Positions 38,697-64,000 of a stretch of 64,000 bases of DNA are shown here, piece after piece (position 1 is the stretch's first letter; each line of letters opens with the position of its first letter). Below the pieces are notes generated by a model. It saw nothing but the letters and a program-made list of their open reading frames with translations. It ran no database searches and had not been told where the DNA came from. Origin of the DNA: Xanthomarina arctica (GTDB lineage: Bacteria; Bacteroidota; Bacteroidia; Flavobacteriales; Flavobacteriaceae); assembly GCF_014638915.1 (NCBI RefSeq), contig NZ_BMFQ01000001.1:1315142-1379141 (forward strand), written 5' to 3'. Position numbers and translations under genes: made by a program.

Positions 38697-41348
38697 ATGC
38701 AAATTCCATCAAAATATGATGCCAGTCAAGTAGAAAGTAAATGGTACGACTACTGGATGAAACACAATTATTTTCATTCTACTCCAGACGAAAGAGAGCC
38801 ATATACCATTGTAATACCTCCGCCAAACGTAACGGGAATATTACATATGGGACATATGCTTAACAATACCATTCAAGATGTTTTAATACGTCGTGCTCGT
38901 TTATTGGGTAAAAATGCGTGTTGGGTTCCTGGAACAGATCATGCCTCTATTGCTACTGAAGCGAAAGTAGTTGCCAGATTAAAAGAGCAAGGAATAGATA
39001 AAAACGATTTAACTCGCGAAGAATTTTTAGCACATGCTTGGGAATGGACTGAAGAATATGGTGGCGTTATCCTTGAACAACTTAAGAAATTAGGATGTTC
39101 TTGCGATTGGGACAGAACCAAATTCACCATGGATGACGATATGTCTGAAGCTGTAATAAAGGTTTTTGTCGATTTACATAATAAAGGCTTAATTTATCGT
39201 GGTTACCGAATGGTAAACTGGGATCCTGAAGCAAAAACAACCTTGTCTGACGAGGAGGTGATCCATGAAGAACGTCAAGGGAATCTATATTATATCAATT
39301 ATAAAATTGAAGGAAGTGATGATACCTTAACTATTGCTACAACACGTCCTGAAACAATTTTTGGAGATACAGCTATTTGTATTAATCCAAATGACGAACG
39401 TTTTGCACATTTACGTGGAAAAAAAGCTATCGTGCCTATTTGTAACCGTGTCATTCCAATTATTGAAGATGACTATGTAGATGTTGAATTTGGAACAGGG
39501 TGTTTAAAAGTGACCCCTGCTCATGATGAAAACGATAAGAATTTAGGAGATAAGCACAATTTAGAAGTGATTGATATTTTCAATGAAGATGCTTCATTAA
39601 ATAGCTTCGGATTACATTACCAAGGACAAGATCGTTTTGTTGCTAGAAAAAATGTAGCTACAGAATTAGAAGAAACTGGTGTTTTAATTAAAACTGAAAC
39701 ACATATCAATAAAGTAGGAACTAGCGAACGTACCAAAGCCGTAATCGAACCAAGATTAAGTGACCAATGGTTCTTAAAAATGGAAGACTTAGTAAAGCCT
39801 GCAATAGAAGCGGTTTTAGGTGAAGATGCAGAAATTAAGTTGTTTCCTAAAAAGTTCGAGAATACCTATAGACATTGGATGGAAAATATTCGCGATTGGA
39901 ATATCTCTAGACAATTACTTTGGGGGCAACAAATTCCAGCTTACTTCTATGGAGATGGGAAAGAAGATTTTGTAGTTGCAGAAAACATCGAAGAGGCTGT
40001 TATTCTTGCGAATCAAAAACTAAGTTTGGACACTGAGCGTAGTCGAAGTGTAACTAAAGAAAATTTACGTCAAGATACCGACGCACTGGATACTTGGTTT
40101 TCATCTTGGTTATGGCCAATGAGTGTTTTCGATGGTATTCGTAATCCTGAAAACGAAGACATCAAGTATTACTATCCAACAAACGACTTAGTGACAGGTC
40201 CGGATATTTTATTCTTTTGGGTAGCACGTATGATTATTGCTGGTTACGAATACAAAGGAGAAAAACCTTTTAACAATGTATATTTAACTGGTTTGGTTCG
40301 TGATAAGCAACGTCGTAAAATGAGTAAATCTTTAGGGAACTCACCAGACGCTTTAAAACTTATAAACGATTATAGTGCAGATGGGGTTCGTGTGGGCTTA
40401 CTTTTAAGTAGTGCCGCCGGAAACGATTTGATGTTCGATGAATCACTTTGTCAGCAAGGAAAAGGTTTTGGAAACAAAATTTGGAATGCTTTCAATTTAA
40501 CCAACTTATGGGAAGTTAGTGATACTATCGAGCAACCACAGTCTAGTAAAATAGCCTTAGAATGGTATGAAGCTAAGTTTCAAGAAGCTTTAGTAGAAAT
40601 AGATGATCATTTTAGTAAATACCGTTTAAGCGATGCCTTAATGAGCATCTATAAATTGATTTATGATGATTTCTGTGGGTGGTTATTAGAAATTGTGAAA
40701 CCAGCTTACCAACAGCCAATCGATGCTAAAACATACCATAGTGTGATAGCTTGTTTCGAAGATAATTTAAAAATTCTTCATCCGTTTATGCCATTTTTAA
40801 CTGAAGATATTTGGCAATATATTGCTGAACGTACTCCAGAAGAAGCATTAATTGTTGCAAAATGGCCAGAAGCGAAACCTATAAATAAAGATTTAATTTC
40901 TCAGTTTGAATTTGCTTCTGAAGTGATTTCAGGAATTAGAACAGTACGTAAAGAAAAGAACATTGCGTTTAAAGATGCGATTGGTTTTTCTGCTATTAAT
41001 AATGAAAATGCAAATACAGCTTTCGATGCCGTTATTTCAAAATTAGGAAATCTAGAGGCTATCGAATATGTTTCAGAACCTGTTGAAGGTGCTTTAACTT
41101 TTAGAGTAAAATCTAACGAGTATTTCATTCCTATGGAAGGTGCGATTGATGTAGAAGCAGAAATCATTAAACTTTCTGAAGAATTAAAATATACAGAAGG
41201 GTTTTTGAAATCTGTTCAAAAGAAATTATCAAACGAACGTTTTGTGGCTGGAGCTCCAGAACAAGTTATTACTAACGAGCGTAACAAAGAAGCAGATGCT
41301 TTAGCTAAGATTGAAACCTTGAAAGCTAGTTTGGCATCTCTAAAATAA
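38697..41348 (+). CDS. valS: Valyl-tRNA synthetase
   Basis: Charges tRNA-Val. The 883-aa class I synthetase has HMGH in [13 protein letters not shown] (about 40-52) and KMSKS in [10 protein letters not shown] (about 540), the CP1 editing domain between them, and a C-terminal coiled coil ([25 protein letters not shown]). A 20-bp palindromic element (40031-40050) lies in frame before the conserved DALDTWFSS segment, adding roughly residues 445-452 DTERSRSV. The frame is intact, so the enzyme is probably functional. Start chosen at 38697 because the upstream TTG lies in the -7 box. Confidence 0.97.
40030..40051. repeat. Palindromic element, family A, inside valS
   Basis: CACTGAGCGTAGTCGAAGTG with arms ACACT/AGTGT at 40030-40034 and 40047-40051. 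It is read as D-T-E-R-S-R-S-V in the valS frame, between the editing-domain end and the DTWFSS region, and breaks no motif. Confidence 0.85.
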
Positions 41349-60019: not shown

Positions 60020-63000
60020 TTAAGGTTCTACAGATATTCTAACACCTTCACTATGACTGCTAAATTCTGGAGCATACATACTTTGTATGGTTGTAATGCC
60101 ATTACTCATATTTCCAGCATTTGTTACACGTAAATCGTATTCAAAAACATAAACTCCTTTTGGTAAATAGTCGAAAAAGAAGTTGGTTGCCGCATCTTTC
60201 GTGCTTTCATAATACCCTAAATTATCTTGCCATTTGTATTGAGATAAAACATTAATAGGCTCTAAACCACTTGCTCTCATGTCTTTCATATGCAAGAATT
60301 CCATATCTCTATCACTTGTTAACTCTATGCGAACACGAACTAAATCGCCAATTTCTAATGGTGTTTCTGTCGTGATTTCTGAAATGGATTCCCCTAAATC
60401 GGTATTTGTTTTTAGGAAGAGTTTTTTCTTTAAACTTAATGGCGTTTCCGCTGAAGTAATTTTATCTAAATCTTCAAAATATTGCCAGTATAAACTTCCC
60501 CAAGCAATACCTTCACCTTTTTTAGTCAAGGTTACTTCTGCCATTTCTGGTTTAATTTCGGAACCTGTCCAAGATGTTTTATAATATCCTGTTCCAGCTT
60601 CAACTTTAACGTCTTCTAATTTTGAAGGATCTATTTTATTTCCTCCTATAACAACATCCACCATATCTGTAACGGACAACCAATCGCTACCTTGAAGCAA
60701 TAGAGCATAAACAGCTTCGGTTGTAGCCTTCGTAGTTTTCCAGCTGTTAGTTTGCTTGTTTTTTAAGAGCCAGATTTTTAGATTGTCTATATCATTGAGA
60801 TTCTTTGACTCACTCTGAATGACAGAACCTACTTCTGCAAAAGCCTCAATCATCAAGGCTTGAGTTTCTATTGGAGCTTGATACCAATACCATGAAGCTT
60901 TATTTTCTTTCCAGTACATGCCTAATTCGTCGCTAGTAACACTGTTTTCTTTTAATGATTTTAAGATTTTTGAAGCTGTAATTTCATCTCCTGCTCTATG
61001 AGATACTAAAGCCATTAATCCTTTGGAATAAATGCTACGTGTTTTCCAATATTTCTGAATTTGTGTCTGATAATAAGCTATAATACTTTCAACTTCTTTG
61101 GATTTTTTTATCTCTGGAAAAAAGCTTCGCATATAAACATAATGTAATTGCGTGTAACTTAAATGGTCTAAGTTTAAATCTGCTTTAGAATTGTATTTGG
61201 TAATGTCTTTATATTCTTCAACAAACTCTTTGTCTAAATAGTTAATGGCTTTCTCAATCATATTATCTTGGTCACTGAGCGTAGTCGAAGTGAGCTTATT
61301 CAAATGCCCAAATCCAGTAATAATATGTTGTGTAATATATCTATTTGGCTTGCCTCCATTAAACCAAGCCCAAGATCCATTTGATTTTTGATTCTGTTTT
61401 AATTTTTTAATGTTCGCCTCTAATTCATTAGTCATTTTGTTTAAATCGAAAAGCAAAGCAATACGTTTCTTTTGTTCGGTTTCACTTTCTGCATCTCGCA
61501 ACCAAGGTGTTTCTTCAATTAGAATCGATTTCAGTTCTTGGTTCTTTTCTAAATTTGAAAGAAGTGCATCTGTGTTTCTCCACTGATTAAAAACTTCCTG
61601 AATTCTAGGATTCGAATTTGCTATATGACTTGCTAAGGAATTTGCATAAAACCTACTAAATATCTGTTCATTACATTCATAAGGATATTCCATTAAATAA
61701 GGAAGCGATTGCACCGCATACCAAGCTGGATTAGACGTTATCTCTAATGTCAACCTATGGTGACTGAGCGTAGTCGAAGTCACATTTTTTAGCTTATCTA
61801 AAGTAAAGGTTTTGGTTTCGTTAGAACGTATCCACATAGGTAAGGTTTCGGTAACCAACATTCTATTAGAAAGTACAGGAAGCGCATTTTGTTCTCCATC
61901 ACTAAAATCGCCTGCTTTAGCAATTATTTTGTATTGAATAGCATCCACATTATCAGGAATGGTTAAACTCCAAGATACTTCGGTATTTCCATTTTCTAAA
62001 ACTGTAAAATCTTGGACACTGAGCGTAGTCGAAGTGTGGTCGTTTCGACTACGCTCAACGTCCATTAGTTCAATAGTAATTTCATTTCCTGTAATTCCAT
62101 CAAAAAGTTGTAAAACCGCTTGTCCTGAAAGTTCTTCTTTAGATAAATTTGAAATTTTAGTACTGATGGTAATTTGATCTCCCTGACGTAAAAAGCGTGG
62201 CACATTTGGAATAACCATCAATTCTTTTTGTGTCACAGTTTCCAAACTAGTTGTAGCAGATTCTAAAGTTTTGGTATGAGCTAGTAATTGCAATTTCCAT
62301 TTGGTTAAAGCTTCTGGGGTGGTGAAACTAAAACTGATATTGCCTTTTTCGTCTGTTTGTAATTGAGGGAAGAAAAAAACCGTTTCTTGAAGGTTTTTTC
62401 TAATTTGAACTTGGGAAAAATCTTCTTTTTTAGGATTAGTAAGTTCGTCCTCTGGGATAATAACTTCATCGTTATTCAAGCCATCCATTGCAATACTTTC
62501 AGATTCTGATTTTGAAACAGCATAACCAATAGACTTTTTCTCTTTTCTTATTCCCATAGCTGTAACAACAACTTCTTCCATATAATTTTCTTCCGGAGAA
62601 ATAGTAGACATACCTCTAATTATTAAAGTAGAATTGTAGCCAAAACTAAACCCAAACCAATCTAATTGATCATAATCATTTTGAACATAATTAAGGTAAT
62701 CCCAATATAAGCTTAGAATACTAAAACCTTCGGTTGAAAAACTAACTCTAGCTGTTCTATTATGATATGAACGATAAGTAGGAAGATTAATTGGGTTAAA
62801 ATTCCAATTATGTCCTTTAAATTGGTCCAGAGAAACGTCGTACATGCTTGCTAATATTTCAGCAGACACCTGTTCTCCTTTTGGACCTTTAATTTTAAAA
62901 CTCCAAGTTTCATCTTGTCCTGGTTGTAATTTGTCTCTAAACGTGGTGGTTTCAATTTCTAAATCGGTTTTTGGATAAGGCACAGAAATAGCTCTGGTGC

Positions 63001-64000
63001 CAGATTCAAAACTATTGGCATAAGCAAAACTGTAATGGACCGCAAAACCGCCTAAATCTTCTTTGTTTACGGGAATACTTAAGGTTTTCTTATTATTACT
63101 TAACTGCACCATGAAAGTGTTTACAGTTTGTTTGTTCTTTTCAATTTCAACAGTTACTAAAATATTTTCTGCTGAAGAACCCAGAGTCAATTCCACTGTT
63201 TCGTTAATTTGATAAGTTTCTTTATTAGTAGAAATACTGAAAAGCTCCTTGTCTGCAAGTGTTTTGTCTGTGACGCTGAACAAGGTAGTTCTAACTTCAT
63301 CTTTTACTTCTTGTCCAAATCTGTCTTTGCTTTCTAATTCAATAACATATTGTCCAGATTCCCATTTCTTAATGTTTCCTAATTCTAGTTCTTTAGATTT
63401 TTCGGTATTGAAGGTTTTTTCAAAGACAAGCTTCCCTTTTTTCCAATCGTTAGGATTGTCTTCATCTGTATAAGCTTCATATGGAAACTTATTTTTAAAT
63501 TCAGTTTTAGAAAGCATTTGATAATCTGGCGCTTTCCATGGTCGCGGACGTAAAACATAATCAGGTCCTTGAAGCTTGTATATTTTTATAGTTCCTTGAG
63601 CTGGAACAAATTCGCCATTTAGGTTTTTTGTGTCTATAGAAAGTTGGTTGTCTTTTTTCAGTTTATCCAAATCAGCATTCACATTTATAGTGGCAATCAA
63701 TGCATGATATCCAACTCGAACTGTGGTTGTTGCAGAGCGTGTTTCCCCATTTAAATCGGTAACATCTGCTGTTATTTCATAATTAAAAATAGGAAGGTTA
63801 CTTTGGTTTACGCTAGTGTCTGGCAAAGCTTTGAAGGTGATTTCAAATTCACCTTTAGCGTTTGTAGTAGTTTCACCATGGGTTATTTCTTGTGCATCGC
63901 TATTATAAGAAGGTCTGCTCCAATAATACCAACGAGGATATTGTACTTTTCTATGCACTCTGTAAACCACTTTAGCATCTGTAATGTTACTTCCTGCATA
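60020..64000 (-). CDS. Bacterial alpha-2-macroglobulin family protein, C-terminal 1326 residues
   Basis: The C-terminal 1326 residues of a large protease-trapping protein; the frame stays open to base 64000, so the N-terminus lies outside. Visible parts in order: MG-type beta domains, MG7-like KWKLQLLAHTK, the thioester site YPYECNEQ (CNEQ at 61664-61675), the all-helical thioester domain, and the final receptor-like MG10 domain. The region after IIRGMSTISPEENY holds a SusC-like EEVVVTAMGIRKEKKSIGYAV (62513-62581). Four palindromic elements are read in frame as TSTTLS (three) and VERSRN (one). Probably a periplasmic or surface protease inhibitor. Confidence 0.93.
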   Translation of the reverse strand, partial: YAGSNITDAKVVYRVHRKVQYPRWYYWSRPSYNSDAQEITHGETTTNAKGEFEITFKALPDTSVNQSNLPIFNYEITADVTDLNGETRSATTTVRVGYHALIATINVNADLDKLKKDNQLSIDTKNLNGEFVPAQGTIKIYKLQGPDYVLRPRPWKAPDYQMLSKTEFKNKFPYEAYTDEDNPNDWKKGKLVFEKTFNTEKSKELELGNIKKWESGQYVIELESKDRFGQEVKDEVRTTLFSVTDKTLADKELFSISTNKETYQINETVELTLGSSAENILVTVEIEKNKQTVNTFMVQLSNNKKTLSIPVNKEDLGGFAVHYSFAYANSFESGTRAISVPYPKTDLEIETTTFRDKLQPGQDETWSFKIKGPKGEQVSAEILASMYDVSLDQFKGHNWNFNPINLPTYRSYHNRTARVSFSTEGFSILSLYWDYLNYVQNDYDQLDWFGFSFGYNSTLIIRGMSTISPEENYMEEVVVTAMGIRKEKKSIGYAVSKSESESIAMDGLNNDEVIIPEDELTNPKKEDFSQVQIRKNLQETVFFFPQLQTDEKGNISFSFTTPEALTKWKLQLLAHTKTLESATTSLETVTQKELMVIPNVPRFLRQGDQITISTKISNLSKEELSGQAVLQLFDGITGNEITIELMDVERSRNDHTSTTLSVQDFTVLENGNTEVSWSLTIPDNVDAIQYKIIAKAGDFSDGEQNALPVLSNRMLVTETLPMWIRSNETKTFTLDKLKNVTSTTLSHHRLTLEITSNPAWYAVQSLPYLMEYPYECNEQIFSRFYANSLASHIANSNPRIQEVFNQWRNTDALLSNLEKNQELKSILIEETPWLRDAESETEQKKRIALLFDLNKMTNELEANIKKLKQNQKSNGSWAWFNGGKPNRYITQHIITGFGHLNKLTSTTLSDQDNMIEKAINYLDKEFVEEYKDITKYNSKADLNLDHLSYTQLHYVYMRSFFPEIKKSKEVESIIAYYQTQIQKYWKTRSIYSKGLMALVSHRAGDEITASKILKSLKENSVTSDELGMYWKENKASWYWYQAPIETQALMIEAFAEVGSVIQSESKNLNDIDNLKIWLLKNKQTNSWKTTKATTEAVYALLLQGSDWLSVTDMVDVVIGGNKIDPSKLEDVKVEAGTGYYKTSWTGSEIKPEMAEVTLTKKGEGIAWGSLYWQYFEDLDKITSAETPLSLKKKLFLKTNTDLGESISEITTETPLEIGDLVRVRIELTSDRDMEFLHMKDMRASGLEPINVLSQYKWQDNLGYYESTKDAATNFFFDYLPKGVYVFEYDLRVTNAGNMSNGITTIQSMYAPEFSSHSEGVRISVEP
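61272..61293. repeat. Palindromic element, family A, coding copy 1 in A2M
   Basis: CACTGAGCGTAGTCGAAGTG (61273-61292) with arms TCACT/AGTGA. It is read on the minus strand as T-S-T-T-L-S in HLNKLTSTTLSDQDN. Confidence 0.85.
61760..61783. repeat. Palindromic element, family A, coding copy 2 in A2M
   Basis: A copy with the same GAGCGTAGTCGA core and 6-bp arms GTGACT/AGTCAC. It is read as V-T-S-T-T-L-S-H. Confidence 0.85.
62016..62037. repeat. Palindromic element, family A, coding copy 3 in A2M
   Basis: Same core with arms ACACT/AGTGT. It is read as H-T-S-T-T-L-S-V. The inverted copy 4 starts 4 nt later, so the two form a long hairpin. Confidence 0.85.
62041..62060. repeat. Palindromic element, family A, coding copy 4 in A2M, inverted
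   Basis: The reverse orientation of the core with arms CGTT/AACG. It is read as D-V-E-R-S-R-N-D, and its TTCGACTACGCTC pairs with GAGCGTAGTCGAA of copy 3 over 13 bp. Confidence 0.85.

Follow-up and report, generated by a model that had tools for sequence, protein, structure and literature searches.

Four copies of a palindromic repeat, read in frame within one alpha-2-macroglobulin (A2M) gene of Xanthomarina arctica, belong to a REP-like hairpin family of Flavobacteriaceae that consists of a fixed core, GAGCGNAGTCGA, and about four free but paired base pairs. Comparison of A2M genes across many genera shows that the loops holding these copies are reused by this family and by unrelated palindromes. 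The window, i.e., the whole stretch of 64,000 nucleotides that was analysed, contains the following features.

60020-64000, minus strand: C-terminal 1326 codons of the A2M (bacterial alpha-2-macroglobulin) host gene, identified by its ORF and the Pfam matches A2M, A2M_BRD, and bMG10
61272-61293, plus strand: element 1, arms TCACT/AGTGA, read TSTTLS, at the hot spot called site 1
61760-61783, plus strand: element 2, arms GTGACT/AGTCAC, read TSTTLS, at site 2, where six of six congeners encode TSTTLK without a change in length
62016-62037, plus strand: element 3, arms ACACT/AGTGT, read TSTTLS, at site 3, in an inverted pair with element 4
62041-62060, minus strand: element 4, arms CGTT/AACG, read ERSR, in an inverted pair with element 3
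60797-60823, minus strand: older palindrome of related type, GTCATTCAGAGTGAGTCAAAGAATCTC on the coding strand, read VIQSESKNL, at site 5
40030-40051, plus strand: fifth exact copy in the window, in the valyl-tRNA synthetase (ValRS) gene, arms ACACT/AGTGT, read TERSRS

Hairpins in the A2M gene and their family

The A2M reading frame is unbroken over its 1326 codons up to the window edge and amounts to 2047 aa in the genome. Exact GAGCGTAGTCGA cores lie in A2M at 61277-61288, 61766-61777, and 62021-62032 on the plus strand and at 62045-62056 on the minus strand, and in ValRS at 40035-40046. Six core matches with at most two mismatches were found in the window, a number that 0 of 100 shuffles reached (mean 0.92, maximum 4). 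The initial annotation had placed four shared-core copies in this gene with coordinates that are right to within one base. It had read three as TSTTLS and one as ERSR in one codon register with the frame kept, and codon boundaries are indeed common to all four. It had also held that at least five of the six element frames are free of stops; five are open and one carries a stop (TGA). The arms of all four elements differ and yet pair, as it had described.

In a predicted model of modest quality (mean pLDDT 60.2), all four A2M copies are situated between secondary-structure elements or at their ends. The sole match of an Rfam search of the window was tRNA, and a PDB chain with a sequence matching the A2M segment was not found. 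The segment (window 60701-62410, minus strand) carries a CNEQ at residues 246-249 that is invariant in 41 of 41 aligned sequences; C-x-E-Q is the thioester motif.

The genome (3.906 Mb) holds 15 exact copies of TGAGCGTAGTCGAA and none of its backwards control, a genome-wide count that confirms a multi-copy palindromic family. Four of the 15 lie within 0.8 kb of A2M, so their clustering exceeds chance. Among 60 genomes of the bacterial family, 38 contain YGAGCGNAGTCGAR, with 27 copies in the window genome and up to 39 elsewhere, against two matches in total for the backwards control. Single elements measure 20-24 nt and pairs about 45-60 nt. The A2M hairpins thus share with REPs a palindrome of 20-40 bp present in many copies per genome, although their copy numbers are low compared with REPs, and they share with REPINs the arrangement of two palindromes in inverted orientation, which is seen in elements 3 and 4, in the LeuRS pair, and in nine pairs at 44-50 bp listed for genome G026; singletons are also common. 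The GTAG or CGTC end tag of REPs was not found; the base N within GCGNAG is T, C, G, or A, and an invariant end tag was not seen.

Like REPs, the copies are mostly outside genes; ORFs contained 33 of the 147 unique copies by the scoring used. This sample comprises 30 loci, 60 stretches from seven genomes, and the earlier loci rather than every copy of the 60 genomes. A copy was called coding when it lay in an ORF of at least 200 codons with 50 codons on each side, a rule that leaves gene ends and short genes unscored and drops the MetRS copy of the window genome.

Conservation of the hairpin under changing arm sequences, which the initial annotation suggested from four elements, was confirmed and widened with 182 unique GAGCGNAGTCGA copies from the collected loci. 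The inner four arm pairs were paired in 96, 95, 92, and 83% of copies, compared with 59, 49, 29, and 34% when right arms were re-dealt. The fifth pair reached 52% against 42% in shuffles, and no excess was seen further out. Sixty-one of 109 distinct five-plus-five arm combinations were fully paired over the inner four positions, whereas shuffles gave a mean of 3.8 and a maximum of 11. Because pairing so far exceeds shuffles, the hairpin is kept as the arms vary. Only copies with identical 54-nt surroundings were dropped from the test, so near-identical relatives may be counted repeatedly, and the shuffles leave this relatedness in; many different paired arms occur even within the window genome.

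Recurrence at A2M loops and the fate of native DNA

Among 81 A2M segments, 35 exact cores were found, all at four places (0, 0, 1, 0, and 0 in synonymous shuffles). Sites 3 and 2 lie between strands and sites 1 and 5 between helices of the predicted model (mean pLDDT 60.2). In the 80 named loci, the segment holds 31 core matches spread over 24 loci, while the exact core is absent from 232.8 kb upstream, taken as A2M, and from 52.2 kb of gene remainder; the 179.8 kb beyond the A2M stop contain two. As A2M was chosen for its four copies, its richness is biased for the window genome and unbiased for the others. Scanning the A2M alignment for hairpins of any kind gave too much noise, with 1,143 hairpins compared with 895-1,029 in ten synonymous shuffles and densest bins that differ from the repeat sites; the core-motif scan was therefore used instead.

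On the A2M tree, the exact-core state requires at least 14, 7, 6, and 2 changes at sites 1, 2, 3, and 5. Several of the copies at sites 1 and 3 may go back to a single ancient event, as decayed forms are found between carriers; there are thus fewer events than carriers. The loop at site 3 also houses other palindromes, which by eye are of CTTCCCC...GGGGAAG, TTCTCTCCC...GGGAGAGA, and TCTGAGGCTCTCGAAGA types, with a CCTTCGACAAGCTCAGG palindrome in one Mangrovimonas. Site 1 likewise holds other palindromes in other genera, and a second palindrome is nested there in seven loci (L193, L201, L221, L237, L243, L265, and L267). Flavivirga algicola (L232), although distant from the window genome on the A2M tree, carries at site 3 an inverted pair that closely resembles elements 3 and 4 and has a longer spacer.

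The initial annotation had likened the elements to mobile repeats that add peptides to proteins, and had proposed an alignment of A2M orthologues as the check. Judged by A2M, Xanthomarina species are the nearest named relatives, and a codon alignment was made with the A2M genes of six congeners (80-84% identical). For elements 3 and 4 the reading stands: among these genes they are present in the window genome alone, are absent from all six congeners, and add a net 33 nt. It does not stand for element 2, where all six congeners lack the element and yet have TSTTLK in that position, equally long and written in different codons, the outcome that the annotation itself had named as refuting its reading. 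An exact core at site 2 is lacking in 74 of the 80 named loci; 37 of these 74 read TSTTL, 32 of the 37 as TSTTLK, and the rest are TSTTLK variants or other inserts. As all six element-free congeners encode TSTTLK, the alignment indicates that a TSTTL-type peptide at site 2 predates the DNA element in the genus.

Element 1 likewise departs from a clean insert, as it is length-neutral relative to five of six congeners. The congeners themselves carry varied DNA at site 1. GTCATTC...GAATCT palindromes stand there in two of them, and a nested palindrome (+8 aa) in a third; a fourth has a palindrome of the hairpin family that has decayed and lies in the opposite orientation, and the other two have decayed forms. 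The opposite orientation, a single case, would fit loop inversion by template switching. At site 5, three of six congeners lack the palindrome and are 7 aa shorter.

Length comparisons at other places are equally mixed. At site 3, seven of eight carriers have the commonest repeat-free length, as do four of seven exact-core carriers at site 2. The GlnRS copy has a net length of 0 relative to four of seven congeners, the other three having a linker 2 aa longer, and the MVD copy adds 3 nt relative to five of six congeners, the sixth having a longer, repeat-like stretch. Larger gains are seen for ValRS (+15 nt relative to six of six congeners), site 5 (+21 nt), and the LeuRS pair (+51 nt relative to two palindrome-free congeners). 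Since net gains are mostly below element size, most of the single entries listed here lost target DNA. At several of the sites, though not at every one, the alignments thus show that the element took the place of native DNA about as long as itself. Length neutrality could reflect selection on loop length; the same loops take much longer palindromes in other species, which argues against tight length limits.

At site 2, the exact cores at native length (window genome, L201, L209, and L257) share one orientation and register and need four changes on the A2M tree, a quick tree built without the site columns in which 29 of 78 inner branches are open. Two exact cases in Winogradskyella may share one origin, as their relatives show S, N, or T at the position of the K found in others. 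The three further exact-core carriers (L233, L245, and L251) are 4-8 aa longer than native. In 63 repeat-free sequences, left after 18 of 81 judged repeat-carrying were excluded, the native 18 nt at site 2 match the repeat at 8-13 positions. Their median rank is 2 of about 3,686 segment positions (rank 1 in 27 and rank 5 or better in 48 of the 63), whereas 40 shuffled repeats on 25 of these natives gave a median rank of 1,747 and a best of 73. With 24-nt repeats and 15 nt allowed on either side, site 2 ranked 1-6 in the six congeners, and 1-23% of random windows matched as well. The similarity signal at site 2 is clear across many species and modest in each. A comparison of intact-core carriers, with a core identity of 100% and a 4-fold identity of 38%, is biased by that choice and is no proof.

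Guidance by similarity as a general rule was rejected after tests at four other genes and other A2M sites. For GlnRS, ValRS, MVD, and A2M site 3, native DNA in most species matched no better than random windows, and LeuRS gave mostly nothing. The exceptions are the LeuRS relative L327 (rank 1) and A2M site 1 in L055, L057, and L058 (rank 1-2), whose relatives already have repeat-like DNA there. A near-match being absent at most other sites, similarity can explain site 2 and not the rest.

Beyond A2M, coding copies in the window genome reside in LeuRS (the pair), ValRS, GlnRS, MetRS, MVD, and PolA; those in GlnRS and MetRS are one base off the window core, and that in PolA has two core mismatches and lies outside the search pattern. 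The LeuRS loop varies within the genus (L320-L327), with the inverted pair in the window genome, a GAGCTTGTCGA palindrome in G002 and G004, others in G003 and G007, a short GAATTCA repeat in G001, and none in G005 and G006. Hosts in other genera include MetRS, a class I/II aminotransferase, an Mfd-like helicase, RNase R, MnmE, a SpoU methylase, and AcrB, among others. Class I tRNA synthetases recur as in-frame hosts (Leu L002, Val L007, Gln L018, and Met L017 and L145). The class I/II aminotransferase contains the core in three genera (L144, L159, and L167), read CQTERSRSPK, CQTERSRSPD, and SHLERSREAS; this may be a further shared site.

Reading frame and routes of spread

The single codon register of the A2M elements fails as a general rule across the hairpin family. 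The 33 coding copies fall into R1 (18), R2 (13), and R3 (2), or by reading into ERSR (10), STTL (8), LSxVE (12), FDxA (1), and RLRS (2). R1 accounts for eight of ten coding copies in the window genome, and the three A2M copies of other genera in this sample (sites 1 and 3) are all R2. The open frames are used unequally, yet more than one is used; the copies being related, these counts carry no probability.

The reading that we favour, with a confidence little better than even, is that REP-like hairpins are tolerated in surface loops, spread by templated replacement, and have their frame set mainly by selection. Copies in genes would persist where a surface loop tolerates them, and such tolerance could be the reason why the same few A2M loops hold both this and unrelated palindromes. 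Spread may be by brief templating while DNA is replicated or repaired, with the hairpin-forming strand serving as the wrong template. Polymerase template switching between the arms would keep them matched and could flip the loop. Selection would act mainly on frame and register, consistent with the absence of the stop-bearing frame and the rarity of the FDxA and RLRS frames. At site 2, the likeness of the native codons to the core may have guided the event, a likeness not seen at the other sites. A donor copy, an enzyme, or an intermediate was not seen.

A more far-reaching version can be offered only tentatively. Here hairpins would multiply by templated overwriting of native DNA of similar length, with the arms re-made at each site, and loops would be persistent addresses rewritten by whichever palindrome is active in a lineage. 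Blocks of 6-8 aa would then change in one step and in parallel without selection on the peptide.

An ordinary REP/REPIN inserted by a RAYT (Y1 HUH) transposase, with survival in permissive loops and later trimming to length neutrality, seems doubtful as an alternative. Short multi-copy palindromes that are mostly outside genes, the nine inverted pairs in G026, the one Y1_Tnp match in the window genome, and entries that add most of the element length all speak for it, but the four site-2 carriers at native length do not. In the 30 Y1_Tnp loci examined, a part of all matches listed, no core lay up to 1.5 kb away, so that a RAYT gene flanked by this palindrome, as in a REPtron, was seen in 0 of 30 loci of PF01797 type, and on these loci RAYT as the resident mover was rejected. 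The match in the window genome is flanked by a different palindrome, GGGACAGCTCGCGAGCTGTCCC, and the hairpin family was accordingly not classed as half of a RAYT-REP pair. A search at E 0.001 gave no Y1_Tnp match in several genomes rich in the repeat (G034 with 15 copies, G060 with 34, G036 with 20, and G031 with 19). The resident gene is itself a weak match to PF01797 (22 bits), so this search may have missed RAYTs that belong to other subfamilies. This Y1_Tnp gene of the window genome (L031 1453-2019, minus strand) has GGACAGCTCGCGAGCTGTCC palindromes in and beside it at 1885-1904, 2046-2067, and 2160-2179, one of which is in frame inside its coding sequence and read GTARELSVQ.

We consider it improbable that the core has a function as DNA, for instance in uptake or protein binding, arises by point mutation from near-matches, and owes its enrichment to selection or to transformation that is biased. 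The fixed core and site 2, with its near-match, its exact core at native length in four loci, and its four tree changes, would suit such an origin, and translation and repair genes recur among the hosts; uptake sequences favour genome maintenance genes. Covarying arms, however, indicate a hairpin, a structure superfluous to a linear motif, the near-match origin was not seen at other sites, and copies number at most 39 per genome among 60.

Least probable is a mobile element akin to the Rickettsia palindromic elements that adds peptides in one preferred frame, the likeness which the initial annotation drew: the palindromes are in frame in coding sequence, elements 3 and 4 are absent from all six congeners, and R1 prevails in eight of ten window-genome copies, but clean insertion fails for some copies, as the element 2 peptide is native in the genus and element 1 is length-neutral relative to five of six congeners, and R1 and R2 are both common across the hairpin family. 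Rickettsia palindromic elements are larger than the about 22 nt of the A2M element.

The coding sites give aligned in-frame states with and without the repeat across many genera, in our judgement a rare situation for intergenic REPs. Such sites make insertion versus overwriting directly testable, and they caution that loop changes of several residues arising in parallel need not signal selection on the protein.

Comparison with known systems

The spread of REPs has been described as poorly understood (PMC8266576). Template switching is reported to homogenise inverted-repeat arms and to invert spacers in yeast genes (PMC8604942), and quasipalindrome template-switch mutation, the subject also of PMC8794818 and PMC7202029, would explain the paired arm changes and loop inversion. 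On its own, it does not copy a core to new places.

Inverted pairs of short dispersed palindromes are common to the A2M family and the REPIN/RAYT system described by Bertels and Rainey 2011 (PMC3116915). The A2M family differs in that its core flanks no Y1_Tnp gene in 30 loci among the matches listed. With the Rickettsia palindromic elements, as cited in PMC3733652, it shares palindromes read within proteins. The A2M family differs in that it is not always added DNA.

The core string was not found in the text of open-licence papers, a search that sequences printed only in figures or supplements would escape. Site reuse on such a scale, free arms, and the overwriting of native peptides were likewise not found in the open-licence literature; overwriting is the mechanism that we infer at the A2M loops.

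The closest counterparts are the intragenic GTAG/CGTC REPs described by Di Nocera et al. 2013 (PMC3733652), short palindromes in ORFs that occur singly or as dimers. Their hosts in other phyla include tRNA synthetases, DNA polymerase I, and repair genes, and different REPs occupy about the same recB site in two Xanthomonas species. The A2M family agrees with this description in its single or dimeric ORF palindromes, its host gene classes, and a site shared by different repeats. It differs in having free paired arms and no fixed GTAG/CGTC tag, in the sharing of loops by unrelated palindromes across genera, and in an entry that is often length-neutral. REPs read in frame and sites used by more than one REP have precedents in kind, and the A2M case looks like a variant of these with variable paired arms and reused protein loops.
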